A DNA stretch of 64,000 nucleotides from Planctomycetota bacterium (lineage in GTDB: Bacteria; Planctomycetota; UBA8742; UBA2392): the NCBI GenBank assembly GCA_019636215.1, contig JAHBXZ010000014.1, positions 1-64,000 of the forward strand. The letters run 5' to 3'. Every line of letters begins with the position of its first letter. Positions within the stretch are counted from its first letter, which is position 1. This document shows positions 18,170 through 37,431 of the stretch, piece after piece. The position numbers and the translations under genes were made by a program. The notes beneath the pieces were generated by a model. The model saw only the letters and a list, made by a program, of their open reading frames with translations, was not told the DNA's origin and did no database searches.

Positions 18170-19825
18170 GTGATCAAGCCCGCCATACTCGTTGTTGACG
18201 ACGAACCCGAGGTGCTGCGCGCCGTCTCGCGCGATCTGCGCCACAAATACGGCGGAACTTACCGTGTGCTGCGCGCCGAATCCGGCGCCATGGCCATGGC
18301 CGCGCTGCGCGAGCTGCGCCAGCGCGATGAACCCGTGGCGCTGCTGTTGTCAGACCAGCGCATGCCTGGCATGGACGGCGTGACGTTTCTGGCTGAGGCG
18401 CGCCTGCTGTTTCCCAATGCCCGCCGCGCACTGCTGACGGCCTATGCCGACACCACGGCGGCGATTGCCAGCATCAACCAGTCGCAGATTGACTATTACC
18501 TCCTCAAGCCCTGGGACCCGCCCCAGGAGCGGCTGTTTCCCGTGATTGACGACCTGCTGGACGGCTGGCGCGCGGACTTCAAGCCCGGCTTTGGCGGCGC
18601 CAAGCTGATCGGCCACCGCTGGTCGCCCCACACCCACGAGCTGCGCAGCTTTCTGGCCCGCAACCAGGTGCCTTACGAGTTTCTTGAGGCCGCCGATTCG
18701 CCCGCCGCACGCGATATCCTGGCGCTGTTGCCGCCAGCCGATCGCGATTTTCCGCTGGTGCTGCTGCCCGGTGGCAAACGCCTTGTGCGACCTCAGCCCG
18801 ACCAGTTGGCCCGCGAACTGGGAATGTCCACACAGGCCAACGCGCCCTTTTATGACGTGGTGTTTGTCGGCGCCGGCCCCGCCGGCCTTGCCAGCGCGGT
18901 GTATGCAGCCAGCGAGGGCCTGAAGTGCCTGATGATTGAGCGCGAGGCCCCCGGCGGACAGGCCGGCACCAGCAATCTGATCGAGAACTACCTGGGCTTC
19001 CCCGCGGGCCTGAGCGGCAGCGAACTCGCGCGCCGTGCCACGGCCCAGGCCAGGAGATTCGGCGTCGAGATCCTCACACCCGCCGAGGCCTTGCGCCTGG
19101 AGATTGACGGCCCCTATCGCCGCGTGCGCCTGGCCAGTGGCGCAAGCGTGGCCTGCCACGTCCTGATGCTGTGCATGGGCGTCAGCTGGCGCACGCTGGG
19201 CGCGCGCGACGCGGGGCGTTTCACGGGCCGGGGCGTCTATTACGGCGCGGCAGGCATGGACGCCGCAAGTTGCGCCAACTGTGATGTGTATGTGGTGGGC
19301 GCGGGAAACTCGGCGGGCCAGGCCGCGATGCACCTGGCTGAAAACGGCGCGCGCGTGAACGTGGTGATGCGCGGAGATTCACTGGCCGAAAAAATGTCGC
19401 AGTACCTGGTGGACCGCATCCGGAATCATCCGCGCATCAGTGTGCATGCGCGGCACGAAGTCGCGGCCTGCAGCGGCGGCGAAAAACTTGAGGCTATCAC
19501 ACTGCGCCATATGGGCACGGGCGCAGAATCTGCAACGTCCACGCAGCACCTGTTTGTATTCATCGGCGCCGCACCCAACACCGGCTGGCTGGGTAATGCA
19601 GTCAAGCGGGACCGGCACGGTTTCATTGTGACCGGCCCTGACCTGGAAAAGTCCGATTTGCGGGATTGGCCGCTGGCCCGGGCGCCGTTTCTGCTGGAAT
19701 CCAGTGTGCCGGGCGTGTTCGCTGCGGGCGACGTGCGGGCAGGGTCGGTCAAGCGCGTGGCCTCGGCCGTGGGCGAGGGCTCGGTGTGCGTGAGCTTCAT
19801 GCACCAGCATCTGGCGGAACTGTGA
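18170..19825 (+). CDS. Response-regulator receiver fused to a thioredoxin-reductase-like flavoprotein
   Basis: Residues 1 to about 130 are a CheY-like receiver (ILVVDDEPEVLR, phospho-acceptor Asp in LLSDQRMPGMDG near residue 61, and the LKPW Lys). About 145-215 resembles a glutaredoxin fold in which the CPYC site is replaced (GHRWSPHTHELRSFL). From about 225 to the end is a two-dinucleotide-domain flavoprotein: FAD motif VFVGAGPAGLASAVYA, NAD(P)H motif VVGAGNSAGQAA and GVFAAGDVRAGS. The redox CxxC of TrxB is absent at its normal place (YGAA near 356); a CANC lies about ten residues later. Start is GTG with no obvious Shine-Dalgarno. The histidine kinase downstream is its likely partner. Such fusions are known in other phyla; output unknown. 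Confidence 0.88.
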   Translation: MIKPAILVVDDEPEVLRAVSRDLRHKYGGTYRVLRAESGAMAMAALRELRQRDEPVALLLSDQRMPGMDGVTFLAEARLLFPNARRALLTAYADTTAAIASINQSQIDYYLLKPWDPPQERLFPVIDDLLDGWRADFKPGFGGAKLIGHRWSPHTHELRSFLARNQVPYEFLEAADSPAARDILALLPPADRDFPLVLLPGGKRLVRPQPDQLARELGMSTQANAPFYDVVFVGAGPAGLASAVYAASEGLKCLMIEREAPGGQAGTSNLIENYLGFPAGLSGSELARRATAQARRFGVEILTPAEALRLEIDGPYRRVRLASGASVACHVLMLCMGVSWRTLGARDAGRFTGRGVYYGAAGMDAASCANCDVYVVGAGNSAGQAAMHLAENGARVNVVMRGDSLAEKMSQYLVDRIRNHPRISVHARHEVAACSGGEKLEAITLRHMGTGAESATSTQHLFVFIGAAPNTGWLGNAVKRDRHGFIVTGPDLEKSDLRDWPLARAPFLLESSVPGVFAAGDVRAGSVKRVASAVGEGSVCVSFMHQHLAEL

Positions 19826-19859
19826 TGACCAGCCGATGCGGAAGCTCGAACCCGACACG

Positions 19860-19942
19860 CGGTTTACGGTCAACGGTTTACGGTCGACGGTCAAAGCCAC
19901 TGCAGTCCTTACCGTTGACCGTCAACCGCAGACTGTCAACCT
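19860..19942. repeat. Period-7 hairpin element C
   Basis: Left arm 19860-19894 is exactly five heptamers: CGGTTTA, CGGTCAA, CGGTTTA, CGGTCGA, CGGTCAA. The right arm 19908-19942 is built of complementary heptamers (TTGACCG, TCAACCG, CAGACTG, TCAACCT). CGGTTTACGGTCAACGG pairs with the right arm with one mismatch in 17. It lies in the leader of the histidine kinase gene, between it and the receiver-fusion gene. Confidence 0.85.
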
Positions 19943-19991
19943 CGTCTGCAGCGCCACGGGCCGCCACGGCAGGCAGAAGGAGCTTCCCGCA

Positions 19992-21428
19992 ATGATCCGT
20001 ATTCTTCCCGGCACGGGCATTTCGCGCGACGAGCTTTCGAAGCTTGATGTCTTTCGCGAACTGACCGACGCGCAACTGGATTGGCTGCGCAACAACGGCG
20101 AACTGCTGGTGGCCGACAAAGATGACGTGATCGTTACTTCGAATGAGCCCGCCAACCACATGCAGGTGCTGCTGTCGGGAGCCATGCACTGGAAGTTCGG
20201 TGTGCCGGGCCAGACGGTGATGTTCACCGAAGCCCGCGTAGGCGCCGTGGGCGGGGCGCTGCCGTTTTCACGGGCAACGACATATCGCGGCCACGGCGTC
20301 GCCAGTGAACCGGTGCGAGGTTTGCGTGTGCCACGCGAACGCTTCACCGAAATGCTGGCGGTGATCCCGGTGCTGGGCGGGCGGCTGGTCGCGATCATGT
20401 CTGATCGCGTCAAGCGCAGCACGCAACTGGCCGACCATCGCGAGAAAATGTCGGCGCTGGGCAAGCTGGCTGCGGGCGTGGCCCACGAACTGAACAATCC
20501 CGCCGCGGCGCTCAAGAGCGCCAGTCTGGAGCTGCGCACACGCCTGGCCAGGATGATGCAGCTGGGCCCGATGCTGATGCTGCTGAAGGTCACGCCTGAT
20601 CACATCATGGCTGCGGCGGCGCTTCGCGACCGCATCACCCAGCGCAACGCCACCCAGTCGCTGACCGCTGTTGAGCGCGCCGAGCGTGAAGACGAGCTGT
20701 CAGACTGGCTGGAAGCCCACGGCGTGCCCGAAGCCTGGAACGCCGCGGCGCAGTTTGCCGACGCCGGTGTGGCCGTGGCAGAGCTTGAGGACTTCGCCGC
20801 CAAGGTGCCGGCCGACGCGCTGCCGCTGGCACTGCAATGGGTCGAGGGCGCGGCCGGTCTGGACATGCTGTCGCGCGATGTGCTGAGCGCCGCCGAGCGC
20901 ATCGGCCACTTGGTGGGCAGCATCAAGGTCTACGCCCACATGGACCGTGCCGCCGAAAAAGAGCCGCATTGTCTTGTCGAGGGCCTGGAAAACACGCTGG
21001 TCATTCTCGGCCACAAGCTGAAGAAGAAGTCGATCCGCGTGCTGCGCGAGTTTGACGCCAAGCTGCCGCCGGTGCCGGCTTATGCGGGCGAATTGAACCA
21101 GGTGTGGACGAACCTGATCGATAACGCGATTGACGCCATGGACGAAGGCGGAACCATCACGTTGCGCACGCGCCAGGAAAGTGATTGTGCCTGCGTGGAA
21201 GTCGCCGACACCGGCGCGGGCATCCCGCCAGAGATCAAAAGCCGCATCTTTGAGCCATTTTTCACCACCAAGCCCATGGGCGAAGGCACTGGCATGGGGC
21301 TGGATATCGTGCACCGCATCATCACCGTGCAGCACGAGGGCGACATTGAGGTAGATTCGCGGCCGGGCTGTACTACCTTCCGCGTGTGGCTGCCCTATCA
21401 TCCGGGCAACCGCATCAAGGAGCTTTAG
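19992..21428 (+). CDS. Sensor histidine kinase with N-terminal cyclic-nucleotide-binding-type domain
   Basis: ATG at 19992 is chosen (AAGGAG 9 nt upstream); an upstream in-frame ATG would translate repeat element C. Residues about 15-130 resemble a cNMP/Crp-type beta-barrel (FRELTDAQLDWLRNN, VLLSGAMHWKFG). The H box is AAGVAHELNNPAAAL (His near 165), followed by an unusually long helical segment of about 200 residues before the ATPase domain, which shows NLIDNAIDAM, DTGAGIP, FEPFFTTK and GTGMGLDIV. No membrane segment, so a soluble kinase. 478 residues. It probably phosphorylates the receiver-flavoprotein encoded just upstream. Confidence 0.88.
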   Translation: MIRILPGTGISRDELSKLDVFRELTDAQLDWLRNNGELLVADKDDVIVTSNEPANHMQVLLSGAMHWKFGVPGQTVMFTEARVGAVGGALPFSRATTYRGHGVASEPVRGLRVPRERFTEMLAVIPVLGGRLVAIMSDRVKRSTQLADHREKMSALGKLAAGVAHELNNPAAALKSASLELRTRLARMMQLGPMLMLLKVTPDHIMAAAALRDRITQRNATQSLTAVERAEREDELSDWLEAHGVPEAWNAAAQFADAGVAVAELEDFAAKVPADALPLALQWVEGAAGLDMLSRDVLSAAERIGHLVGSIKVYAHMDRAAEKEPHCLVEGLENTLVILGHKLKKKSIRVLREFDAKLPPVPAYAGELNQVWTNLIDNAIDAMDEGGTITLRTRQESDCACVEVADTGAGIPPEIKSRIFEPFFTTKPMGEGTGMGLDIVHRIITVQHEGDIEVDSRPGCTTFRVWLPYHPGNRIKEL

Positions 21429-21970: not shown

Positions 21971-22534
21971 TTGCCCGTGAATTCACGCGGGCCCCTGCGT
22001 GATTCCTGTGTGAGTGGCGCCTTGGCTGACGGCAACTGGGCGGATTGGGACTTCGCAAGGCTCGTCGAAGAGCACTTCGCGCGGGCGGTGCGCTTCTGTT
22101 CCCGGCTGCTTGGCAACGTCAACGACGGCGAAGAGGTGGCCCAGCAGGCCTTTGTAAACCTGCTGCAGAAGGGCAGACGGCCGTGGGAGCAGGGTGACCC
22201 GCTGCCTTTTCTCTACACCGTGCTGCGGAATGCCTGCGTCGATCATGTTCGCCGGCGCAGGCATACCGCCACAGAAGGGCTGGACCCCGCGGCACCGATT
22301 GCCGACCTGTCGCGGGCCGAACAACGTGAGGTCAGTGACGCGCTGTTTGCGGCACTGGAGGCTCTCGATGCGCCGCAGCGCGAGGCAGTTCTGCTGCGGT
22401 TCTATGAGGGGCTTGATCTGCCCCAGGTGGCCAAGGTGATGAACCGCAGCATCGGCGCTACCGCCATGCTGCTGACACGAGGCAAGGCAAAGTTGAAGGA
22501 AAGGCTTGGGCGACTGCCCGAGTTCAGACCATGA
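21971..22534 (+). CDS. ECF-type RNA polymerase sigma factor
   Basis: Region 2 is seen in LVEEHFARAVRFCSRLLG and the GEEVAQQAFVNLLQK/FLYTVLRNACVDHVRRRR blocks, and region 4 in LDAPQREAVLLRFYEGLDLP plus a helix-turn-helix ending TRGKAKLKERLG. Up to 187 residues; the TTG at 21971 is only one option, and a GTG at about 22011 (SGALADGN) would also work, as neither has a clear Shine-Dalgarno. The stop overlaps the start of the next gene as ATGA (22531-22534), the usual arrangement of an ECF factor and its membrane anti-sigma factor. Confidence 0.9.
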   Translation: MPVNSRGPLRDSCVSGALADGNWADWDFARLVEEHFARAVRFCSRLLGNVNDGEEVAQQAFVNLLQKGRRPWEQGDPLPFLYTVLRNACVDHVRRRRHTATEGLDPAAPIADLSRAEQREVSDALFAALEALDAPQREAVLLRFYEGLDLPQVAKVMNRSIGATAMLLTRGKAKLKERLGRLPEFRP

Positions 22535-24042
22535 CCGCTGACGAAGCCCGAAAACTTTTCGATCGCGCATTGGCCGACACCCTGGCCGGCGAGGAACTGC
22601 GCGCGTTCGAGGCTGCGCTGGCGGCAGACCCGGCTTTGTGCGCCCAGTTCGAGGCCTGGTCCGACACCCGGGCCGGCGTCGCCGGTATGGATGCATGGCT
22701 GCGCAATGCCGGGGCCGAAGCCGCCCGGCAGATGCCGTTGATCCCGGCTGATGTCGCACTTCGCATCCGGGCCGCAGCAGGCAACCGCGTCCGTGGCCGG
22801 GTGATCCGGCTGGCGGTTGCGGCGGTTGCACTTGCGGCTGCCGCGGCGATTGCGCTGGTGGTGATACTGCCGGGCGACAAGCCGCAGGGCCCGCAACCCG
22901 CGCCCGAGGCCAAGACCGGCTGGCCGGTTGCGGCGCAGGGCCAGGTGGCGATGTTTGATGACGCCCTGTACGCGCAGGCCCAGCTGGATGAAGTGACGCC
23001 GCGCAAGGGCGTCAAGTTGCTGATCGCCAAGGGTTCGCTGTTGCACCCGATTCACCCGGGGTTGGCTTTGCTGGAAGGCGAAGTGACCGTGCGCCTGGAC
23101 GCAGGGGCAAGGTTTGAAGTGCATGTTGGCAACCACCGCGTCATTGCCGCTGGGCCCGCCGAGTTCGGCGTGCGCGCCGAGGCTGACGCATTTCCCGATG
23201 TTCAACCACCCGAGGACACCCGTATGCATCGCCCTGACCTGCTGGCCCGCTTCGGCGCGCTGGCTTTTGCATTCACCGTCACAGCCGTAAGCGGCACCGT
23301 TGATGTTCGCGCCGAAGGCCCGCCCATCCAACTTGGTGCCGGGCAGGTGCAGACCTTCCAGGCTGGCCCGGTCCCCGCGCCCGGCCCCGGCGGGCCCGAT
23401 GCGCCCAAGCCGCCGACGCCCGAGGATGCCTTCAAGCACCTGGATAAGAACGCCGACGGCAAGCTCGACGACAAAGAGGCCGACAAGAAGATGCTTGAGG
23501 ACTTTGACGACAACAAGGACGGCAGCGTTGACCTTGACGAGTTCAAGGCCCACTGGAAGCCGCGCAAGCCCGGCCCCGGCCCGAACCCGCCCAAGCCCGA
23601 GGACCTTTTCAAGAAGCTCGACAAGAACAGCGACGGCAAGCTGGATGACAAGGAAGCCGACAAGAAACTGATTGAAGACTTCGACGACAACAAGGACGGC
23701 ACGGTCGACCTTGACGAGTTCAAGGCCCATCACAAGCCGCCCCAGCCCGGCCCCGGCCCCGGCCCAGGCCCAGGCCCAGGCCCGAACCCGCCCAAGCCTG
23801 AGGACGTGTTCAAGGAAAAGGACAAGAACAACGACGGCAAGCTAGACGACAAAGAGACTGACAAGAAGATGCTTGAGGATTTTGACGACAACGACGATGG
23901 CGTGATCGACCTGGACGAGTTCAAGAAGCACTTCAAGCCGCGTCCGCCCCGCGGCCCTGGCCCTGGCCCTGGCCCCGGCGGTCCTGGCCCCGGTGGTCCT
24001 GGCCCCGGTGGCCCGGGCGGCCCTCCCCGCGGCCCCAAGTAA
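22531..24042 (+). CDS. Membrane anti-sigma-like protein with FecR-like and three EF-hand-pair modules
   Basis: Residues 1-85 form a short cytoplasmic region that opens like anti-sigma N-termini (ADEARKLFDRALADTLAGEE, then LAADPALCAQFEAW). One membrane helix spans about 90-113. The periplasmic part first shows a FecR-like stretch (GSLLHPIHPGLALLEGEVTV, FEVHVGNHRVIAAGPAEFGV), then three copies of an EF-hand pair with loops such as DKNADGKLDDKE and DDNKDGSVDLDE, separated by Pro/Gly linkers (PGPGPGPGPGP). The loops keep Ca2+ ligands at 1, 3, 5 and 12. Overlap with the sigma gene supports an anti-sigma role; calcium control is inference. A terminator follows. Confidence 0.82.
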   Translation: MTADEARKLFDRALADTLAGEELRAFEAALAADPALCAQFEAWSDTRAGVAGMDAWLRNAGAEAARQMPLIPADVALRIRAAAGNRVRGRVIRLAVAAVALAAAAAIALVVILPGDKPQGPQPAPEAKTGWPVAAQGQVAMFDDALYAQAQLDEVTPRKGVKLLIAKGSLLHPIHPGLALLEGEVTVRLDAGARFEVHVGNHRVIAAGPAEFGVRAEADAFPDVQPPEDTRMHRPDLLARFGALAFAFTVTAVSGTVDVRAEGPPIQLGAGQVQTFQAGPVPAPGPGGPDAPKPPTPEDAFKHLDKNADGKLDDKEADKKMLEDFDDNKDGSVDLDEFKAHWKPRKPGPGPNPPKPEDLFKKLDKNSDGKLDDKEADKKLIEDFDDNKDGTVDLDEFKAHHKPPQPGPGPGPGPGPGPNPPKPEDVFKEKDKNNDGKLDDKETDKKMLEDFDDNDDGVIDLDEFKKHFKPRPPRGPGPGPGPGGPGPGGPGPGGPGGPPRGPK

Positions 24043-25730: not shown

Positions 25731-28700
25731 ATGCGTCGTATTGCATTTGCGGCACTCTACACAATCTGCTTTGGCGCGCTGGCGTTCACGGCCGGTTGCG
25801 GCCCCGGCCTGATTGCGCTCGGCGGTGGCGGGTCTGGTGCCTGGTTCGGGTTGGCTGGCGGCGACGACGACAAAAAGAAGTCCACAGAGCCCCCCGTGCA
25901 AGGCCCTAACGTCGCACCGGCAGTCATCGTAACGGCGCTGGTACGCGAAGAATCACCGGCGCGCATCCAGTACACACTGATCGACGCCAACGCCGACGTT
26001 TGCTCGGTGCAGGTCGAGTTTGCCGAAGGCGCGGGGCCCTTCACTTCCTGCCTGCAGGGTGCCGGGGGCGATGGCATAACCGGGCTGACCAGCAGCGCAG
26101 GCGGGACAAACCATGTGTTCCGCTGGGACTTTCAGACCGACCTTGGGCCGCAACGCAGTACGAACATAAGCATTCGCATCCGCGCCAATGACGGCGCGCA
26201 GTTTGGCAGCTGGTTCACGCTGTCCAGCCAGTCGATCGGCAATGACGGGCCTGACATCGACAACGTCAACATCCTTGGCACTTCAGGCGTGGTGCTGGTC
26301 ACCTTTGACCTGCTGGACCAGAACAGTGACCTTGGCAGCTTTGAAATGGAGTGGTCGATTGATTCCGGCCTGAACTTCACGCCGGTGGTCCCATCCAGTG
26401 AGATCGTGGGCAACCCGCCTGTCGGCCTGCTCACCAGCCCCACGGGTTCTCCAGGCCAGATTGTTTGGAACACAAGTGTTGCGCTGGGCAACTATGTGGG
26501 CGAGTTCTACCTGCGATTTTTTCCGTATGACCAGCCGACCGGCTATGGTTCGCCCACACCGGGTGTACCTGTAGTGATCGGGCCGTTTGTGTTGGACAAC
26601 GCTGTGAATCAGCCTCCGGTGTTGGAACTGGCACGACTCTACAGCGGGCAGCAATTCGTGTCGAAGGTGCCGCTGGACTTCACGCTGGCCGACGGCGAAT
26701 CCGACGCAGCGGCCGTGATTGTGGCTTACTCCGTCAGTGGCGGCTCGGCCCAGCTGGCGACACTGACGCAGCAGTTCGGTGCTGGCACGGCGGGCCCGTT
26801 CCCCACAACGCCCAGCCCGACGTTCTACGGCGTGACGTGGGATGCCCTGGCCGACTTGAAGAACGAGCCCGGCATCCTGACGACCGGTGTTCCGGTGAAC
26901 GTCATCCTGATCCCGGCGGACGCACAATCTGGAACGCCCGTGATCACGGCGCAGTTCACGGTGTTCGGCAACTCAGCCCCCGAAGTTGCTTCGATCAGTG
27001 TGCTCAACACGTTTGGAAATGTTCCGGTGGTTGTGCGCTTGGTAGATGCCTCCAGCGACCCGGTAAGCGTTTCCGTGAGCTATTCCACAGATGGCAACAC
27101 TTTTTCGCCGCTGTCGCAGTCAGACTTTCCGTTTGGGAGCCTGTCCAGCTTGGCCGCCAGCCCGTCAGGCGTGGATAACGCGCTGGTCTGGAACTCAGCG
27201 CTGGTGTTCAACGGCGCGGGGGCCAACCAGCCTACGGTTTATCTGCGCGTGACTCCGACGGATCATCCGGTCAGTGGTACGCCAACGGCCGACATGACGG
27301 GCCAGTTCTTCGACAGCAATCCGTTTCCGATCATTAACAATCCTTCGGGCGCCGCGCCTGTCAGCATTTCGCTGTTCACCGTGTCGACACCGGGATCCAC
27401 GACGCCGTCGTCGCCCCAGCACGTCACGGTGGTTCCCGGCGGAACCCCGCCGGCCAACCAGCGGCACTTCAACCGTGTGATCAACCCGTCTTCAGCCGTG
27501 GGCTTTGAGACGTTCTTTGCGGTCTTCGATGGTCCAGGGTACGGCACACTGCTGGATGACCTTGGCAATCCACTGAACTACGCCACAGCAACGCTTACGA
27601 TGGAAGACCCCAGTGCCATCTTCTCGGGCGACACCATCACCATCGGCGACGGATTCAACACGCCGGTTACGTTTGAGTTTTACAACGGTGGGGTGCAGAC
27701 GTTTCCGAACCCCAACACCGTGGTGGACATTGTGGGTGCCGCCAATGCAGACGATGTGGCAGCGTTGTTTTTTGCCGAGCTGGATTCCGCGTTCGGCTCG
27801 AACTTCCTGCTGCTGGCCAGCGTGGCAGGCGACACGGTTACTCTGACGCACTACATTGCGTGCAACTCGGGCAACGCGGCTTCCCACGGGGGTTTTGCGC
27901 CGGACATGGCCTTCAGCAACCCTGGCGTGGTGACTAGCTATACGGATTTGGCGGGCGGGGCCGCGCCAACCAACGGCGTCACTTTTGTGGCACCTTCCAC
28001 GGCCCCCGGCGCGTCCGAGTCCGTCACGATCAAGTGCGAGATCGACCATCCATCGTTCTTCAACGTAAAGAGTTTTCACCAGTTGTACTGGGGCCCGACT
28101 CCTACTTCAGTTTCGATTGCTCCGAACCCTGCAACGGTGATGCTGAACGGCGCCCAGAACTTCGGTGCCACGGTGTTTCCAGGCGGGGCACCCCAGCGAG
28201 TGACCTGGGAAGTCATTGGCTCGGGCAACGGTTCGTTCTCAAGCAACGGGCTGTATCGCGCACCGGCGACAATGCCCGCGTCTTCCAGTGTCACCATCAA
28301 GGCAACATCTGTGCAGTCCGGAATCTTTGGTATCGCGACGGTGAACCTGGTTCCCGAGCCCACCAGCATCGACGTAACCAGCCAGGGTGGTGCGACCACG
28401 CTGGTTCTCAGCGGCGGGACAGCTTCTACGCTGCAGTTCTTCTCGCAGGTGAACCCGACGGGCGCGCCCCAGGGCGTGAACTGGCGCATCATTCACGCCG
28501 GCTTTGACCACGGCGGCGGCGGCGCAACGGTGGGCACTATCAGCCTGGGCGGATTGTACACCGCGCCTAACATGCTGATCAGCCCGCCGCAGGTACAGAT
28601 CCAGGCCGTCAGCCTTGTCAACTCGGCCGTGTACGGCAGCTTCAACCTGACACTGGTGGCACCGGCCCCGACCAGCTTTGCGGTGTCGCCGGCCTCGGTC

Positions 28701-31163
28701 ACTGTCTTTTCTGGCGGAATTGGTCAGCAGTTTGATGCCGTGAACTTTGTCCCGACCAACGCAAACCCGGCCGTCACCTGGGAACTTATCCCGTCGTCCG
28801 GGTTTGGCACCATTTCTTCGTCTGGCTATTACACGCCTCCATTCAACGTCGCCGCGGCCACCAACGTGACGGCCCGCGCGCGCAGCGCCGTGCAATCTAC
28901 GGTGCTGGCCGACGCGATCATTGACCTGCGCCCCAACGCCTCGGCCACACCTACTGGCGTGACCCTGACGCCGGAACAGGCCGTGACATCCGTTGTCGGC
29001 CCGCAGGTGACGTTTGTGGCAACGGTTGCGCCGGGCACGGCTCCGCAGAACATCACCTGGTCTATCGTTGGAGGCGCACCAAAAGGCAGCGTGGACGCGA
29101 GCGGCAAATACACGCCCGGCACATCGACCACCGACTACACGGAAACGATCCGTGCAACAGCCACGGGTTTCCCAACCGTGTTTGACGAATCTGTGGTCTA
29201 TGTCAGCGGCAGCGGCCATTCCGTCACGGATCGCCAGGACGTGGTCGTCGGGCGTGCCGATGCGACGCCCATCTGGGATGGCATCAACCAGCGCCTGTGG
29301 CTGATCGGCGGCCAGAGTGAAGCCACGCGACCCGACCACGAACTCCAGGTGCGCTACTACGATGTTGGTGCCGACATCCTGATGCAGGGGCCGACCATCA
29401 GCGGCGCCGGCGGCGCGTTTTCGGCACAGCCGCGCAGCGTGCAGGCAGCGCTGGATCCTGTCAGCGGCCGTATCTTTGTGGTGTGCGGGATGGGCGCGGC
29501 AGCGGCGCCGCGCATTTTCCAGTTGTCGCTGAGTACGCCCACTGCGTGGTCCGAGTTCGTCTCCCCCGGCGGTGGCGGCAACATCCCATTCATGATTTCA
29601 AACCAGCGGTACCCGCTGTGGTATGACACAACTGACAACCTGCTGTACCTGATGCAGGACAAAGCCGAAGCCTACCGCTTCAATCCGGCGACGAATCAGT
29701 GGATATCCAGGGTCAGCTGGAGCCAGCAGACTTTCGGGCCCAATGCAATTCTGAACAACGCATTTGTATGGCGCCAGGCTAACCGCGAACTGGTGTGCAT
29801 TGGGCCCCAGACAGATTTCTCCGGTGCATCCCATCGCGTACACGTGCTGGAAGTGGCCAACAGTCGCTGGATGGTGCGCACTGCCTTGGGTACGCCGCCC
29901 AGCACCGGAATCGCCGAGGCCGGCCTGTTTTTCTCTGCGACCACGGGAAGTTACTTCATGTATGGCGGCCGCGATGTCGGCACCAGCACTTTCAATGAAG
30001 ACATGCGCGAAGTGGTGATCACCAGCAGTTCCGCCACCTGGACCACGGTTGCCCTGGCGGCGCCGCAGCCGGAGCGCCGGGCACGCATGCTGATGTCCGA
30101 CACCAATGCCGGCACCGGGCCGATCTGTTACGGAGGCAGAAACATGACCGGCGTGTACGGGGATATCTGGAATTTCAATCCGACCACAAAAACATTTCAG
30201 CGCGCGAACCCGGGCGGACTGCTGCCGCAGGGGCGCAAGTTTGCCGTCGGTGGATGGATGAACGGCCAGGGGTATGTGGTCGGCGGCGAATGCGACCACG
30301 GCACCAGCGACGAAATGTGGAATGTCACCATGTCAGGCGGCGTGCCGCAGTGGAGCCTCCGCAACACAACCGGTGCCAAGCCGCCCAAGGTGTGCAGTGC
30401 TTCGGTTGCCATGGATCCGGCCGGCAACCGCTTCTTCCTGTTCGGCGGATCGGATCTGGCTGGCGGATCCAAGGGCTCCAGCGTCAATAACGACCTGTAC
30501 CAGTTTGTTAGCACGACCAACACCTGGTCTGTGATCACACCTTCCGGAACACCGCCATCGGCCCGTTTCGGCGCGGCGATGTGCCCCGTTTTCACAATCG
30601 GTGGTTCCCTGAAGGAATTGTGGATCTTTGGCGGGGAAGGCGTCAGTGGCAAGCTGAACGACCTGCACAAACTGGATCTTTCCTCGGGCCTGCCCGGAAC
30701 CTGGAGCGTTGTCGCCCAGGCATCGCCACCAGACGCGCGCGAAGGCGCAACCATGGGCTGGGATTCCAGGCGGAACTTCCTGCTGCTGGTGGGTGGGGAC
30801 TCCACGATTTCAGGGCCTAACCGCCAGTACTTTGAATTCAGCATTTCCTCAGGCATCTGGCAGGCCCGCACCGTCGGAAACACAGGCAGCGAAGAAAACG
30901 TGCACATCACCGGTGCGGTGTACGACGACCTGCACCGGCGGTTCCTGCATGGGCCTTTTGACAAGACCAAGAATCAGGCGCTGGTCGTTGCGACCGGCAC
31001 CCCGGGCTGGCAGTACATGATCTCCCCGACCACCGAGCACCATTCGGCAAGCGTAGGCTTGTTTGACCCCGCCACCGGCAGATACTGGGTTGTTTCCGGC
31101 GACCGAACCACCTCCGGCAACAAGATCGGCACCAACGCGGTTCGCACTTTCCGATTGAAATAG
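25731..31163 (+). CDS. Giant surface lipoprotein with Ig-like modules and C-terminal kelch propeller
   Basis: ATG at 25731 with CTGGAGGCAAGCC upstream. Residues 1-23 are a lipoprotein-type signal (ALAFTAGC, Cys 23), followed by a Gly/Asp/Lys-rich linker. About 60-780 hold repeated beta-sandwich modules with ANADVCSVQVEF- and SDLGSFEMEWS-type motifs. About 790-1160 hold four Big-like Ig modules, each with a GxYTAP/GLYRAP motif. From about 1165 to the end, kelch-type blades are visible (NDLYQFVSTTNTWSVI, SARFGAAMC, FGGEGVSGKLNDLHKLDL). 1810 residues, probably outer-membrane tethered. It ends 3 bp before the giant kinase gene, so lipoprotein, kinase and caspase-like protein form one unit. Direct repeats TAGCGCGT at 25597 and 25639 lie in its upstream region. 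Ligand unknown. Confidence 0.85.
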   Translation: MRRIAFAALYTICFGALAFTAGCGPGLIALGGGGSGAWFGLAGGDDDKKKSTEPPVQGPNVAPAVIVTALVREESPARIQYTLIDANADVCSVQVEFAEGAGPFTSCLQGAGGDGITGLTSSAGGTNHVFRWDFQTDLGPQRSTNISIRIRANDGAQFGSWFTLSSQSIGNDGPDIDNVNILGTSGVVLVTFDLLDQNSDLGSFEMEWSIDSGLNFTPVVPSSEIVGNPPVGLLTSPTGSPGQIVWNTSVALGNYVGEFYLRFFPYDQPTGYGSPTPGVPVVIGPFVLDNAVNQPPVLELARLYSGQQFVSKVPLDFTLADGESDAAAVIVAYSVSGGSAQLATLTQQFGAGTAGPFPTTPSPTFYGVTWDALADLKNEPGILTTGVPVNVILIPADAQSGTPVITAQFTVFGNSAPEVASISVLNTFGNVPVVVRLVDASSDPVSVSVSYSTDGNTFSPLSQSDFPFGSLSSLAASPSGVDNALVWNSALVFNGAGANQPTVYLRVTPTDHPVSGTPTADMTGQFFDSNPFPIINNPSGAAPVSISLFTVSTPGSTTPSSPQHVTVVPGGTPPANQRHFNRVINPSSAVGFETFFAVFDGPGYGTLLDDLGNPLNYATATLTMEDPSAIFSGDTITIGDGFNTPVTFEFYNGGVQTFPNPNTVVDIVGAANADDVAALFFAELDSAFGSNFLLLASVAGDTVTLTHYIACNSGNAASHGGFAPDMAFSNPGVVTSYTDLAGGAAPTNGVTFVAPSTAPGASESVTIKCEIDHPSFFNVKSFHQLYWGPTPTSVSIAPNPATVMLNGAQNFGATVFPGGAPQRVTWEVIGSGNGSFSSNGLYRAPATMPASSSVTIKATSVQSGIFGIATVNLVPEPTSIDVTSQGGATTLVLSGGTASTLQFFSQVNPTGAPQGVNWRIIHAGFDHGGGGATVGTISLGGLYTAPNMLISPPQVQIQAVSLVNSAVYGSFNLTLVAPAPTSFAVSPASVTVFSGGIGQQFDAVNFVPTNANPAVTWELIPSSGFGTISSSGYYTPPFNVAAATNVTARARSAVQSTVLADAIIDLRPNASATPTGVTLTPEQAVTSVVGPQVTFVATVAPGTAPQNITWSIVGGAPKGSVDASGKYTPGTSTTDYTETIRATATGFPTVFDESVVYVSGSGHSVTDRQDVVVGRADATPIWDGINQRLWLIGGQSEATRPDHELQVRYYDVGADILMQGPTISGAGGAFSAQPRSVQAALDPVSGRIFVVCGMGAAAAPRIFQLSLSTPTAWSEFVSPGGGGNIPFMISNQRYPLWYDTTDNLLYLMQDKAEAYRFNPATNQWISRVSWSQQTFGPNAILNNAFVWRQANRELVCIGPQTDFSGASHRVHVLEVANSRWMVRTALGTPPSTGIAEAGLFFSATTGSYFMYGGRDVGTSTFNEDMREVVITSSSATWTTVALAAPQPERRARMLMSDTNAGTGPICYGGRNMTGVYGDIWNFNPTTKTFQRANPGGLLPQGRKFAVGGWMNGQGYVVGGECDHGTSDEMWNVTMSGGVPQWSLRNTTGAKPPKVCSASVAMDPAGNRFFLFGGSDLAGGSKGSSVNNDLYQFVSTTNTWSVITPSGTPPSARFGAAMCPVFTIGGSLKELWIFGGEGVSGKLNDLHKLDLSSGLPGTWSVVAQASPPDAREGATMGWDSRRNFLLLVGGDSTISGPNRQYFEFSISSGIWQARTVGNTGSEENVHITGAVYDDLHRRFLHGPFDKTKNQALVVATGTPGWQYMISPTTEHHSASVGLFDPATGRYWVVSGDRTTSGNKIGTNAVRTFRLK

Positions 31164-31166
31164 ACC

Positions 31167-34100
31167 ATGGCCGGAAACGAACAACTGGATCGCCTGTTTC
31201 TTGACCGCGCCCGCGCCCGCAAGCTGTTATCGGCCTCGCAGGTGCAGGCTGTGTACATGGATTTACTGCTTCGCCGGCCAGCCGAGCCCGACCTGCAGGC
31301 CTACGAAGTCGTGGTCGAGCGCGGCTGGCTGGGCGTAGAAGACGCCCTTGCGTTGTTGAACGCGTCGCCCAGCGACACCATCGCCGATGTGGAAGCCCGC
31401 GTGAACAGTTCGCCGATGCTGGAGCCCAGCGCCGGCGCAGACACCCTGGACGGCGAGGAGTCCCGCCAGGGCATGGTGCGGCGGTCCTCGGACACAGAGC
31501 GTTTCACCAGCACACTGCGGCCTGACGATGAAAACGCCGAGCTTTCGCCCGACGACGTGGCAGACCTTGCCGACGACGACCCGGTGTATGCCGAAGTGCC
31601 GAAGTTTGTGGAACCGCTTGCACCAAGCTACGCCGTTACCGACGGTGGTTCGGAGGATTCGGTTTTGGAAATGGAACTGCCTCCGCCGGTGCCGGGCAGC
31701 GGAGACAGTTTGTTTGAGGAAGGTGACAGCCGGCCCATGCCTTCGCTGGCCGCCGATATTGATAGTGAGCCGATCCTTTCCGAGCGCACGCCCAGCGCCG
31801 TGTATGCGCCGTTCACGGCCGACCAGCAGCTTGCCCACTTGCCGCCCGTCGACCCGAACCAGACAGCCGACCCGTCCATCACCGCCCAGGAATGGACCGC
31901 GCCCGGCGCCACTGCCAGCGATACTGCCACCGGCGAGGGCGAGCTTGCCCCGGTGCCGGTGTTTCAGCACCGCGGCAGCAAGGGTGCCAACGTTGATTTT
32001 GCGTCGTTTGGCGAAGACGACCGAGCGCCGCAAGTGCCAGATGAATCCGAGACCTTCTCGCAGGAAATGAACGACAGCGCCGTCGGCGAAGTGATGGAAG
32101 ATGCCGACGACGGCTACTTCGGCCCGCCCGCCGACCTCACGCAGACCCCGCGCGAAATGCTGGAAGAAAGCATCGCGCCGGCCAAGCCGCTTTCCGGCAA
32201 CACACTGTTCGACAGCGAATCACTGAAGGAAGCGGCAGGCGTTGCGGCGGTCGCTGCCGATGATGACTCCGATTATGCCGCCACCACACCTCCCGCGGCG
32301 CCGCCTGCTTCACGCCGGCCCAGCGCCCCGATCACCGAAGTCAAGGATGACAGCGATGTTGACTTCGGCGTGACGATTGCCGGGCAGGAAGACTCCGGCC
32401 CGCCCAGCACCATTTACGACGACAGCGATGTCAGCCTGGCCGAGACCGGAAACACCAGCCAGATCACCGACCCCAAGATCACCACCGGCAGCAAGACACA
32501 GTTTGCCACCGGCGAGGTCGCCCGTGCCGGCCTGCAGAAAACCGACCCCAGCAAGCTGGGAGTCGAAAGCAACATCACCGGCCAGGAAATGACCCTGGCA
32601 GACCTGCGCCAGCAGATGGGACTTGGCGACGGTGTCAAGCTGGACGGCGCCGGCACCGGCAGCGCCGTCAACAAGCTGCGCAAAATCGGCGGCATGAAGA
32701 AGCGCTATTCCGTCGTGCGCGAAATCGCCCGCGGCGGCATGGGCAAGGTCATTGAGGTCGAAGACAACGACCTGCGCCGGTCTGTCGCGCTGAAGGTCCT
32801 GCGCAAGGAAATGCTCGATCGCAAGGATCTCGTGGAGCGCTTCCTGGAAGAAGCCCAGATCACCGGCCAGCTGGAGCACCCCAACATCGTGCCCGTGCAC
32901 GAAATCGGTGTAGATGGCCGCGGCAACCTGTACTTCACCATGAAGCTTGTCGAGGGTGAGGACCTGTCCAGCATCCTAAAGCGCATGCGCAAAGGCGACC
33001 CCGGCGCCGACAAGGCCTACCCGGTTGCCCGGCTGGTCGACATCTTCATCAAGATCTGCGAAGGCATCGCCTTTGCCCACAGCAAGGGCGTCATCCATCG
33101 CGACCTGAAGCCCGCCAACGTCATGGTCGGTCGCTTTGGCGAAGTACAGATCATGGACTGGGGCGTGGCCAAAATCGTGGGCCGCAAAGAAGACACCCAC
33201 GACCGCATGGTCGTGTCCGACCGCCAGCAGGACGACGCCAACCGCACCATGGCCGGCTCGATCCTTGGCACGCCAAGCTACATGTCTCCGGAACAGGCCC
33301 GCGGTGAAGTCAACTACATGGGCCCGACCAGCGACATCTTCAGCTTGGGCGTGATCCTGTACGAGCTGCTGGCACTCAAGACGCCGTGGACTGCCCAGAC
33401 TTCTGCGCAGGTTCTGGACCAGGTCAAGAACTTCAACCCGGAACCGCCCAGCAAGATGTCGCCCGATCGCAAGATTCCGCCCGAACTCGAGCAGCTTGCC
33501 CTCAAGTGCATCGAGAAGATGCCGCACAAGCGCATCCAGACGGTGCAGGAACTGGTGGACAACCTGCGTTCGTGGCAGGAAGGGCGCACACTGGCGGCTG
33601 TTGAGTACTCGATGGCCCAGTTGCTGGCCAAGTGGTTCTCGCGCAACAAGGTCGCCGTGCTGACCACCATGGCCGTGCTGGCGGCGCTGGTGATTGGCGT
33701 GGTGGTAACGGCCAATGTCGCGCGCCAGGACCGCCTGAACAAGGGCCGCGAAAGCCTGGCTGCTGCCGACCGCGCCCTTGTGGATGCCCGCGCCGCGCTG
33801 GCTCGCGAGGACTACGACACCGCGTTCAGCCTGGGCAGCGAGGCCCGCACTGCGGCATCGGCCGCCAAAAAGGACCTTGAAGACGACCCCAAGGCCGCCG
33901 AGATCGAAACCGAAGCGGCGATTGTCGCCAACACCGCCCAGCAGCAGAAGAAGTCCCGCGAAGACGAAATCCGCCGCAAGGAGCGCGACGCCGAAAAGCT
34001 CAAGGAACTCGAAGGCGCGCTGGTAGAAGCCCGCCGCATCCTGGGCGTGGCCCGCCAGCAGGATACGACCGCACAGGACCCGGCGGTGTCCAACGAAACA

Positions 34101-35804
34101 TTCAACGACGCCAAGTCCGCCTTCATCAAGGCCCAAAGCATCGACCCGGAGAATGCCGAGGCCAAGCTGGCTCTTGCCGAAATCGCCGACTGGTTGAAGA
34201 ACTACGAAACCCGCCGCCGACAGGAGGCCGACCTGCGCGGCCTGCGCGCACTGGTGGACGATGCTGGCCGCAAACTGTCGGCCGCCAAGGCTATCCGCAC
34301 CGACAGCGACGAAAGCTACCAGCAGGCAGGAAAGTCATTCATGGAAGCCATTGCAGTGTGTGATTCCGCGCTGGCTGTTGCCGTGGCCGGCATCGAGGGC
34401 GACACACTGCGCGCCAAGGCTCGCGGTTTCAAGGCCGATGCGTCACTGGAGTTCGCCCGCCGCGCCATGGCACTGATGCGTTACGAAGTTGCCGACCTGA
34501 TGCTGAACAGCGCCGCCGGCACCGGGTTGCTGGCCAAGGAAGTAGAAGCCACCCGTGTGCAGCTGGCCAAGGTCGTGCAGGAACAAAGCAAGTTCCGCAC
34601 ACTGGTCAAGGATGCCGAAAGGGCTGCCAACGCCCGCGAATGGGTGCTGGCCCAGGCGCACCTGCAGAACGCGATTGCCGAAGCCCGCAACAGCCCCTTT
34701 GCCGACGACATTGAACGCGCGCGGCTGGCCCGCAGCCTCGAACTGGCAAGGCTGGAGGGCCTGCGCGTGGACGACCAGCGCGCCAAGGCCTCCGGCGACA
34801 TGCTGCGCGTGCTGGCGCAGTACGACGACCTCTGTGTGCTGTTGAAGGACCCGGACTATCTGTCGCGCGCCGAGATGCTGCGCGACGAACTGAAGCTGCG
34901 CATCGGAAAAACCCTGATTGCAGAGACCGAGGGCGCAGAAGACGCCGTGGCCGCCGAACTGCTGGAAAAGGCGCTGCTGCACGTCACGGACAAGCAGGAC
35001 CTTGCCACCATCAATACCCGCCTGACGGAAATCAAACTGCGGCTGGCCATGGCGCGGGTCAGTGACCGTTTTGTGCTTCTGCCGCGCGGCTCGTATGTGG
35101 TTGGCAGCAACCGCGACGGCGACAACAACCCGCAGCGCACCATTGATCAGAACGAGTTCCTGTTCATCGACAAGTACCTTGTGACCAACGGCGAGTACCG
35201 CCAGTTCGTGGATGCCGGCGGCTACAACCAGCCCGAGTTGTGGCACGAGCAGGCCCGGCCCCTGCTTTCTCAGTTTGTGGATTCCACCGGGCGCCCCGGC
35301 CCCGCTCTGTGGGCCAAGGGTGGTTATGACCCCAGCCTGGACAAGTACCCCGTAACCGGCCTGTGCTGGTACGAGGCCTGCGCCTATGCCAAGTGGGCGG
35401 GCAAGCGCCTGCCCACGGCCGCCGAGTGGGAAATCGCCGGCGGTGCCGCTGCTGCTGGCCAGCCCGCGGCAGGCGATTACCCGTTCGGCACTCGCGACAG
35501 TGCCCCGGCCGCGGGGGTGCTGGAGCCCCGTGAGGTCGGCACCACAGAATGGGACCAAAGCAGCCTTGGCGTGCGAGACCTGGGCTGTAACGTCTCGGAA
35601 TGGACCGGCGACAGCACCGGCAGCCGCGCCACGATCAAGGGTGCCGAGCCCGGGTTGCGCCCGGAGCTTTACTTCCGGTACGCCCGCCGCGCCAAGAACA
35701 GCCAGGCCAATCTTCTGGACAGGTCCCCCGGCCGCGGCTTCCGATGTGTTCGCGTGTTTACCCTGCAGGACGTGAGTGACCCCAAGGATCCCAAGGATGG
35801 CTAG
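31167..35804 (+). CDS. Membrane Ser/Thr protein kinase with C-terminal FGE/sulfatase-modifying-factor-like domain
   Basis: Residues 1-500 are mostly acidic, Pro/Ser/Asp-rich and probably disordered after a small helical start. The kinase domain covers about 513-800: REIARGGMGKV (P-loop), VALKVLRKE (Lys near 541), HRDLKPANVMVG (near 643), MDWGVAKIV (DWG instead of DFG, common in planctomycetes) and GTPSYMSPEQARGE. One membrane helix follows (about 830-851), then about 430 residues of Ala/Glu/Lys-rich coiled coil, then from about 1300 an FGE-like fold (RFVLLPRGSYVVGS, VTNGEYRQFVDAGG, KRLPTAAEWEIAGG, GRGFRCVRVF). The paired catalytic Cys of true FGE are not seen, so the domain is probably binding rather than enzymatic. 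1545 residues. Its stop overlaps the caspase-like gene by 5 nt. Confidence 0.92.
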   Translation: MAGNEQLDRLFLDRARARKLLSASQVQAVYMDLLLRRPAEPDLQAYEVVVERGWLGVEDALALLNASPSDTIADVEARVNSSPMLEPSAGADTLDGEESRQGMVRRSSDTERFTSTLRPDDENAELSPDDVADLADDDPVYAEVPKFVEPLAPSYAVTDGGSEDSVLEMELPPPVPGSGDSLFEEGDSRPMPSLAADIDSEPILSERTPSAVYAPFTADQQLAHLPPVDPNQTADPSITAQEWTAPGATASDTATGEGELAPVPVFQHRGSKGANVDFASFGEDDRAPQVPDESETFSQEMNDSAVGEVMEDADDGYFGPPADLTQTPREMLEESIAPAKPLSGNTLFDSESLKEAAGVAAVAADDDSDYAATTPPAAPPASRRPSAPITEVKDDSDVDFGVTIAGQEDSGPPSTIYDDSDVSLAETGNTSQITDPKITTGSKTQFATGEVARAGLQKTDPSKLGVESNITGQEMTLADLRQQMGLGDGVKLDGAGTGSAVNKLRKIGGMKKRYSVVREIARGGMGKVIEVEDNDLRRSVALKVLRKEMLDRKDLVERFLEEAQITGQLEHPNIVPVHEIGVDGRGNLYFTMKLVEGEDLSSILKRMRKGDPGADKAYPVARLVDIFIKICEGIAFAHSKGVIHRDLKPANVMVGRFGEVQIMDWGVAKIVGRKEDTHDRMVVSDRQQDDANRTMAGSILGTPSYMSPEQARGEVNYMGPTSDIFSLGVILYELLALKTPWTAQTSAQVLDQVKNFNPEPPSKMSPDRKIPPELEQLALKCIEKMPHKRIQTVQELVDNLRSWQEGRTLAAVEYSMAQLLAKWFSRNKVAVLTTMAVLAALVIGVVVTANVARQDRLNKGRESLAAADRALVDARAALAREDYDTAFSLGSEARTAASAAKKDLEDDPKAAEIETEAAIVANTAQQQKKSREDEIRRKERDAEKLKELEGALVEARRILGVARQQDTTAQDPAVSNETFNDAKSAFIKAQSIDPENAEAKLALAEIADWLKNYETRRRQEADLRGLRALVDDAGRKLSAAKAIRTDSDESYQQAGKSFMEAIAVCDSALAVAVAGIEGDTLRAKARGFKADASLEFARRAMALMRYEVADLMLNSAAGTGLLAKEVEATRVQLAKVVQEQSKFRTLVKDAERAANAREWVLAQAHLQNAIAEARNSPFADDIERARLARSLELARLEGLRVDDQRAKASGDMLRVLAQYDDLCVLLKDPDYLSRAEMLRDELKLRIGKTLIAETEGAEDAVAAELLEKALLHVTDKQDLATINTRLTEIKLRLAMARVSDRFVLLPRGSYVVGSNRDGDNNPQRTIDQNEFLFIDKYLVTNGEYRQFVDAGGYNQPELWHEQARPLLSQFVDSTGRPGPALWAKGGYDPSLDKYPVTGLCWYEACAYAKWAGKRLPTAAEWEIAGGAAAAGQPAAGDYPFGTRDSAPAAGVLEPREVGTTEWDQSSLGVRDLGCNVSEWTGDSTGSRATIKGAEPGLRPELYFRYARRAKNSQANLLDRSPGRGFRCVRVFTLQDVSDPKDPKDG

Positions 35805-37431
35805 CAAGCCCGGGCCTGCCCTGATGATGGTTTCGCTGGTCTGCCTGCTTGCGCTTGCCGCCTGCAGCAACGTCGAGACACCGGACCTCAAGGCCGACGT
35901 CCTGAACGAAAAGCTGATTCCCGCCGACTGGAAGCCTGTCAGCCTGCGTGTGGGCGTAGCCCCGATGCGCGCGGCCATGGAACTGGACGAGCGCCGCTAC
36001 AACGTGGAAAACACCAAGCGCTGGGTGCTGACGCCCGACGAAGTGCGCATGAACGGCCCCGATGGGCTGAACGCGCGATTGATGGCAGTGCTGAAAGAGT
36101 ACCGCATGTTTGAACACGTGGCGCTGCTGGAAGGCGCCACGCCGACAACTTCGCGCGAGGAAATGCAGCGCATGGCGCTGCGCCAGGGCCTGGATGTTGT
36201 GCTGATGCCCACCGTCAAGCGCCAGGACGTGGGCTATGTGGACAGTAACGGCGCCTATGGCTGGAACATGTTTGTGTGGTGGATGGTCAGCCCGATTTTC
36301 TCGTGGTTCATAGCCGACGAGGATTTCGACGCCAACCTGCACATTGACCTGCGCATGTATCCGACCTCAAGCGACGATGAGATTGCCGCCACCCGCCTGC
36401 AGCCGCGCGAAACTGTGGTACGCAGCCTGGACGACTTCGACCACGGCTTCAACCTGTTCAGTATCTTCAGCACGCCCGGCTACATGGACGAAGACAACTG
36501 GCAGAAGGTAGGCAGCCTGCTGTTGCCGATCGCCGAGAACGAAGCCAAGAAGTCGATGATCCGTTACATCACGACCGACCTGGCGCGGCGCGCCGAGGGC
36601 GAGGATTTCCGCTCGGCCGTGCGCCGGCGTGTGGCGCTGGTGATCGGCGTGGATGGAGGCGGAGTGCCGCCGATTCCGCTGACGCGTTACGCCGCAGCAG
36701 ATGCCGAAGGCATTGCCGCGCAGTTCATGGACGCCGAAAACAATCGCGTGCCGGACGTCGCAGTTCGCACTTTGCTGGGTCAGCGCGCCACCCGGCGTAC
36801 CGTGGAAGCCGCGGCCGAGGAACTTTCCACGCTGGCGCGGGGCAACGACGACCTGTTTGTGGTGTTTTGCGGCGTGGGCACACTCGACGACATGCAGCGC
36901 CCGGCGCTGATCCTGGCCCAGGGTGCTGGCAGCAGGGTGGAAACCATCGCCCTGGAAGCCCTGCTTGAGAAACTCACGGTCAACAACCCGCGCACGGTGA
37001 CGCTGGTTCTGGATTGCAGCTTTACTTCCCCGGGCGACCGCCGTTGTGCCACCCCGGCCGCGCAGGTGGAAAAATTGCTGGCTTCGGCTCCCGGCAAGAG
37101 CCTGCTGCTGCCGATCCAGCAGAAGCTTTCCCTGGCAGGCATTGCCTGCGTGATCCTGGCGGCCAGCGACGCAGTGCCTGCCAACCCGCACGGCATGAAG
37201 GCACTCGAGATTGAAGACCTCAACCACGGCCTGTTCAGCGCCTATGCAATGGAAGCGTTGTCAGGGCGCGCCGATGCAAACGGCGATCGCATTGTCTCTT
37301 TCGCGGAGTTCCAGAAGTACGTGGCCGCGCGCGTGACGCGCATTTCGGAGCTTGAGGGCGAAACCCAGTCCGGCTACTTCATTGCGCCACCCGAACGCAG
37401 CGAATACGGACTGCCCTCAGGCCGCCGCTAA
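35800..37431 (+). CDS. Lipoprotein with degenerate caspase-like (C14) domain
   Basis: The ATG at 35800 overlaps the kinase stop by 5 nt. Residues 1-23 are a lipoprotein signal with lipobox LAAC. The region 30-270 is an unrecognised domain with a short hydrophobic stretch (MFVWWMVSPIFSWFI). From about 276 the caspase fold begins (RVALVIGVDGG), with LTRYAAADAEGIAAQFM matching the usual alpha-1. Where active members have FSGHG this one has FCGVG, and LVLDCSFTSPG replaces LDACHSG, so the catalytic His is lost and the Cys is shifted by one. Near the end DANGDRIVSFAEF fits an EF-hand loop, as in many bacterial caspase-like proteins. 543 residues. Probably a non-catalytic partner of the kinase. Confidence 0.85.
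   Translation, partial: ASKPGPALMMVSLVCLLALAACSNVETPDLKADVLNEKLIPADWKPVSLRVGVAPMRAAMELDERRYNVENTKRWVLTPDEVRMNGPDGLNARLMAVLKEYRMFEHVALLEGATPTTSREEMQRMALRQGLDVVLMPTVKRQDVGYVDSNGAYGWNMFVWWMVSPIFSWFIADEDFDANLHIDLRMYPTSSDDEIAATRLQPRETVVRSLDDFDHGFNLFSIFSTPGYMDEDNWQKVGSLLLPIAENEAKKSMIRYITTDLARRAEGEDFRSAVRRRVALVIGVDGGGVPPIPLTRYAAADAEGIAAQFMDAENNRVPDVAVRTLLGQRATRRTVEAAAEELSTLARGNDDLFVVFCGVGTLDDMQRPALILAQGAGSRVETIALEALLEKLTVNNPRTVTLVLDCSFTSPGDRRCATPAAQVEKLLASAPGKSLLLPIQQKLSLAGIACVILAASDAVPANPHGMKALEIEDLNHGLFSAYAMEALSGRADANGDRIVSFAEFQKYVAARVTRISELEGETQSGYFIAPPERSEYGLPSGRR

Follow-up and report, generated by a model that had tools for sequence, protein, structure and literature searches.

Three adjoining planctomycete genes probably encode an undescribed machine that spans the cell envelope, since the same gene set recurs across the phylum Planctomycetota. 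We recovered it from a 64,000-nucleotide stretch of DNA (hereafter the window) on contig JAHBXZ010000014.1, part of a 4.0-Mb assembly of 34 contigs, and the relatives that we located belong to metagenome-assembled Planctomycetota. The gene coordinates, confirmed on this contig, are:

25731..31163, plus strand: g1, giant lipoprotein of 1810 aa (ATG at 25731, stop codon ending at 31163)
31167..35804, plus strand: g2, kinase with a single transmembrane (TM) helix, periplasmic stalk and FGE-fold domain, 1545 aa
35797..37431, plus strand: g3, lipoprotein of 544 aa that joins a CsgG/PelC-like domain to a pseudo-caspase domain (ATG at 35797)

A sequence-only reading of the window had placed a 3-bp gap between the first two genes, and 3 nt indeed separate the end of g1 from the start of g2. 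Its figure of 5 nt for the overlap between g2 and g3 was wrong: from the ATG of g3 to the g2 stop codon (TAG, 35802-35804) the overlap is 8 nt, and it would grow to 29 nt with an alternative upstream start for g3 (GTG, 35776). The further proposal that the three genes form one transcript appears very likely, because tight same-strand spacing is maintained in nearly every genome and the flanking genes vary; a promoter and terminator scan at the locus returned nothing exceeding chance. Elsewhere in the window a gene for a pyridine-nucleotide-disulphide oxidoreductase with a fused receiver domain (18170-19825) is followed by a cNMP-binding/HATPase histidine-kinase-like gene (19836-21428), and a further gene (22531-24042) encodes a 503-aa protein with several EF-hand matches, partial relatives of which are found near the trio in a few genomes of the family.

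Conservation and phyletic spread of the gene set

All three genes are present in each of the 16 searched genomes of the same family, which cover 6 genera, and chance is thereby excluded. They are contiguous in 14 of these genomes, as a rule with gaps of a few nt, and in the other two a contig end falls inside the trio. The 14 contiguous genomes contribute 17 copies. In one of these a contig end truncates g1, and another (in G237) has a split g1 ORF, where a 1436-aa frame (L038:2024-6334) is accompanied by a 433-aa frame of its own for the kelch end, reflecting either a sequencing error or a frameshift. Within the family the genes flanking the trio differ from genome to genome, and the orthologous kinase never occurs without its neighbours. 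Three genomes of one genus (labelled g5) carry two divergent whole copies of the trio; the three proteins are 70-76% identical within a copy class and 39-45% between copies, and as all three diverge alike, the trio seems to have been duplicated as a whole unit.

Beyond the family, a protein search recovered g3-type proteins in 63 of 294 genomes, and a profile search for the CsgG-like domain gave 53 positive genomes out of 392. When 61 loci outside the family were picked by g3 similarity alone, a kinase-FGE gene immediately adjoined the g3-type gene at 33 of them, in about 20 GTDB families, a count that includes the bare FGE part at contig ends (14/21 in the first set of distant loci and 19/40 in a second, lower-scoring set). 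Under an assumed adjacency rate of 1% the binomial P is about 1e-49. No kinase-FGE gene immediately adjoins the g3-type gene at the other 28 loci, some of which lie on short contigs. The conserved neighbourhood that the sequence-only reading proposed to look for is thus borne out both in the family and at these distant loci. Its opposite, kinase homologues routinely found without either neighbour, is not seen inside the family and holds loosely outside it, as other planctomycetes possess stand-alone kinase-FGE genes with no g3-type neighbour (L095, L099, L100, L104-L107, L109 and L110). The module kinases cluster in the kinase tree, requiring 5 changes versus 15.1 with shuffled labels, and the stand-alone proteins fall outside the main module group, save for one long-branch row. 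Plasmid-borne spread was considered and rejected, as a tblastn search of 72,556 plasmids with g3 gave no match.

Many of the loci at which kinase-FGE and g3-type genes adjoin also encode an Ig-repeat lipoprotein, often terminating in a kelch or NHL propeller. The usual order outside the family is kinase, g3, Ig lipoprotein, as against Ig-kelch, kinase, g3 in the present family. Of the third-component proteins examined elsewhere, those of five other families carry a propeller, of kelch type in L053 and of NHL type in L060, L064, L072 and, weakly, L069; none was found in that of L055. The kelch end is a lineage version of a component that carries NHL propellers in other members.

Domain architecture of the three proteins

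The anatomy of the module is well supported, and its principal features are as follows:

25797..25799, plus strand: g1 lipobox cysteine (TAGC); C23, invariant in an alignment of 17 homologues
25878..27470, plus strand: g1 N-terminal Ig-like repeats, residues 50-580, for which our own HMM (G1NT) matches distant loci
29208..31160, plus strand: g1 kelch propeller region (Pfam Kelch_KLHDC2, 2.3e-39)
32694..33596, plus strand: g2 protein kinase domain (Pfam, 1.9e-46)
33651..33707, plus strand: g2 transmembrane helix, residues 829-847 (hydropathy scan; a helix lies at the same place in homologues)
35049..35768, plus strand: g2 FGE-sulfatase (C-type-lectin-like) domain (Pfam, 2.5e-29)
35863..35865, plus strand: g3 lipobox cysteine (LAAC); C23, invariant in the alignment, most distant homologues also having a lipobox
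35866..36612, plus strand: g3 CsgG/PelC/DUF330-like domain (AlphaFold2 pLDDT 90.2, 41-sequence alignment)
36247..36330, plus strand: g3 aromatic motif N-G-x-Y-x-x-N...W...SW(F/W)(I/V)ADE (alignment; between strands, low model confidence)
36418..36501, plus strand: g3 second conserved motif RSLDDFD-x-G...IF..P....NW (alignment; other loop of the CsgG-like domain)
36874..36876, plus strand: g3 catalytic His column, occupied by Val360, GVG instead of GHG (alignment)
37018..37020, plus strand: g3 catalytic Cys column, occupied by Ser408, LD-C-S-F instead of D-x-C (alignment with the intact L070 pair)
37273..37308, plus strand: EF-hand-like loop DANGDRIVSFAE in the g3 pseudo-caspase domain (weak Pfam EF-hand matches in several homologues)

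In g1 the lipobox is followed by the N-terminal Ig-like repeats, a Big_2-type region and the C-terminal kelch beta-propeller. The sequence-only reading had described an Ig/kelch lipoprotein, and its kelch and lipid-anchor assignments hold; as for the Ig modules, the Pfam Big_2 domain is detected in 10 of 17 homologues but not in the window copy. The portion common to module lipoproteins across the phylum is the Ig-repeat part at residues 50-580 (G1NT). The notion that such repeats are a commonplace genomic feature was rejected for this genome, in which the HMM has a single match; some other genomes (G020) contain many of them.

The description of g2 as a transmembrane kinase with an FGE-like end agrees with our findings. 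Its kinase domain possesses the residues typical of Hanks-type Ser/Thr kinases, with K543, HRD (644-646), K648, N651 and D664 invariant in 20 homologues, the last of these in a DWG motif where DFG is usual. The N-terminal region is acidic, and the one clear TM lies between the kinase and FGE domains, with a long periplasmic stalk. In sequence searches of the PDB the FGE domain matches EgtB, OvsA, FGE and PorK, which assigns it to the FGE fold. The formylglycine-generating enzyme itself binds copper through a C-terminal cysteine pair. The C-terminal regions of the 19 copies of g2 in the family lack such a pair, and the order-level copy (L053) has two C-terminal cysteines, but with a different spacing; judging from these residues, the domain is FGE-like and probably non-catalytic. 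Across the trio the kinase domain is the most conserved part and the g1 propeller and g2 stalk are the least, which is what one would expect if an outer part faces ligands and the intracellular output is conserved.

The reading of g3 as a lipid-anchored caspase fold alone overlooked its N-terminal domain, and this alters the mechanism that can be proposed. An AlphaFold2 model of the entire protein has a pLDDT of 86.6, and the best Foldseek matches of the N-terminal half, remodelled from the 41-sequence alignment, are CsgG (4uv2, 5.6e-6), the LPHT ring, DUF330, PelC and FlgT, such that both the fold and the lipid anchor of this group are found in g3. Pfam CsgG (PF03783) has no match in g3 or its homologues, nor anywhere else in the same genome, and aligning the domain's sequence directly to those of CsgG and LpoB from E. 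coli gave no useful information. The modelled domain is accordingly best described as kin to CsgG/PelC by fold only; given the modest TM-scores of the Foldseek matches (about 0.3-0.55) and the missing Pfam match, formation of a ring or pore by g3 is only an analogy. CsgG-like lipoprotein domains with no detectable caspase half are encoded at L124, L135, L137, L138, L148 and L155, some of them cut by contig ends; those of L148 and L155 still adjoin a kinase-FGE gene.

A Pfam search of the window copy of g3 yielded no family match, and 3 of 19 g3 homologues give weak Pfam caspase matches. Together with a weak profile hit on yeast metacaspase (E 0.0018) and Foldseek matches of the C-terminal half to metacaspases and MALT1 (E 2e-9 to 1e-5), these support the caspase fold. 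The sequence-only reading had noted this fold and the loss of the catalytic His, both of which stand, but it was incomplete, as the Cys is gone too. Among the 18 copies of the family, together with the one at order level, V, I, L, M or T stands in the His column and S, A or G in the Cys column, both residues being lost in 19/19; in distant copies the His column is mostly Y and the Cys column mostly S or G. Despite the lost dyad, the copies retain the AG-x-G and LD-x-(S/G)-F scaffold. We also considered the cysteine of the LDCS motif as the catalytic residue and rejected it, as alignment with L070 puts the catalytic Cys at D+2, the position of Ser in the family. Wherever both columns of a kinase-linked copy align, the dyad is absent, and it is intact (GHG, DAC) only in the unlinked L070 pair; L118 keeps the aligned His alone. 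The L070 pair (L070:6806-10124) consists of two tandem caspase-type genes, one with a CsgG-like domain, with no kinase-FGE gene nearby; their motifs make them candidate active relatives of the pseudo-caspase.

A proposed mechanism and its alternatives

We propose, with what we regard as an even chance of being right, that the trio forms a trans-envelope receptor-kinase module of the Planctomycetota, in which the pseudo-caspase lipoprotein serves as ring or adaptor. The envelope-spanning layout already suggested in the sequence-only reading fits the lipoboxes on g1 and g3 and the position of the single TM of g2. As a lipid-anchored, putative outer-membrane or surface protein, g1 would use its Ig repeats to hold the propeller outward, where it might bind a polymer, a neighbouring cell or a surface. 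The CsgG/PelC-like domain of g3, a putative outer-membrane lipoprotein, probably forms a ring or platform by analogy with its structural relatives, and the dead caspase domain could act as a peptide- or protein-binding adaptor, perhaps Ca-tuned, with no protease role. Finally, g2 is predicted from its residues to be an active cytoplasmic Ser/Thr kinase, the TM helix and stalk of which would present the non-catalytic FGE-fold domain for docking on g3 and/or g1, thereby relaying their state to the cytoplasm. The direct contacts, ring formation, ligand binding and direction of signalling in this scheme are those that we infer. It is conceivable, if somewhat short of an even chance, that this is an undescribed, phylum-specific machine in which a dead caspase, carried on a ring-forming lipoprotein of the outer membrane, couples an inner-membrane Ser/Thr kinase to an Ig-propeller receptor at the surface; if true, it would represent outside-in phosphorylation signalling in bacteria via a pseudo-caspase adaptor.

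The main rival is an export or assembly role of the CsgG-like part, with g3 as an outer-membrane channel or escort ring that moves g1 or positions it at the cell surface, and the kinase sensing or licensing assembly via its FGE domain. Among the best matches of the g3 N-terminal domain there are indeed ring lipoproteins from export systems (CsgG, PelC/PelBC and flagellar parts), two of its inter-strand loops are aromatic, kept phylum-wide and least confident in the model, a cargo-like giant lipoprotein is co-encoded, and the g2 FGE domain also matches PorK/GldK of the T9SS. However, that presumed cargo is already lipid-anchored, g3 lacks a Pfam CsgG match and no CsgE/F-like partners were noticed, leaving this explanation on the unlikely side. 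More doubtful still is an envelope-stress or cell-wall sensor resembling the Rcs or LpoB-type relays, in which g3 would inform the kinase of the condition of the outer membrane or peptidoglycan, with g1 serving as an accessory adhesin. The PknB/PknD type of the g2 kinase is consistent with it, as is the fold group matched by the g3 N-terminal half in Foldseek, which also takes in the TolB N-domain and the HpaA, DUF330 and GNA1162 lipoproteins; but the Pfam search found no peptidoglycan-binding domain, and the recurrence of the Ig-propeller protein across families suggests more than an accessory role.

An immune or programmed-cell-death system, in which a kinase and a lectin-fold sensor control a caspase-type effector, is highly improbable. 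Kinases, FGE domains and caspases occur together in such systems (PMC7159879, PMC10907252), and PADLOC kinase and caspase models match g2 and g3, but these are a generic kinase-domain and a weak caspase match only, and a link to conflict systems, as raised in the sequence-only reading, or to cell-death systems found no support beyond them. Against it, too, are the dyad loss in the kinase-linked copies with both columns aligned, which leaves no competent effector among them, the export of the caspase part as a lipoprotein, and a universal vertical presence in the family unlike that of a mobile defence island. Diversification of the FGE domain by a DGR was likewise considered and rejected: the single reverse-transcriptase (RVT_1) gene of the genome (G000:C1:504874-505542, L156) sits on a contig other than that of the trio.

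Relationship to known systems

Planctomycetes have many Ser/Thr kinases and giant surface proteins, the partners of which are largely unknown. The proposed trans-envelope receptor-kinase module supplies one kinase class, in about 20 families, with its probable partners in the envelope and points to an ancient, consistently inactivated caspase retained as a structural part of the envelope; with it, what planctomycete kinases sense becomes directly testable in one operon.

Almost all planctomycete species examined in one study are reported to have Ser/Thr kinases whose periplasmic part bears a sulfatase-modifying-factor (FGE) domain (PMC11032199). Like them, g2 spans the membrane once and has its FGE domain on the far side. 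The text of that study mentions no caspase, lipoprotein or operon, whereas g2 is genetically linked to two specific lipoproteins. With CsgG, PelC, DUF330 and FlgT lipoproteins g3 shares the fold and lipid anchor, but it differs in its C-terminal pseudo-caspase and in having no Pfam CsgG match. As in pseudo-orthocaspases (PMC6426788) and prokaryotic metacaspases (PMC3501461), a caspase p20-type fold is combined in g3 with replacement of His and Cys, and Tyr, the commonest replacement at the His site of pseudo-orthocaspases, is also the commonest in distant module members. In contrast to these proteins, the g3 caspase is exported, shares its chain with a CsgG/PelC-like lipoprotein domain and is kinase-linked, and planctomycetes are absent from the text of the 2019 pseudo-orthocaspase paper. 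The FGE-containing conflict systems and DGR targets (PMC7159879, PMC10907252) have the vocabulary of kinase, FGE/CLec fold and caspase in common with the trio, the locus of which differs in carrying no RT, in yielding no STAND, MoxR or EAD parts and in its dead caspase. FGE-bearing kinases, pseudo-orthocaspases and FGE/caspase conflict systems have thus each been known separately, and the set that links a kinase to a CsgG/PelC-like pseudo-caspase lipoprotein does not appear in the open-access literature that we searched.
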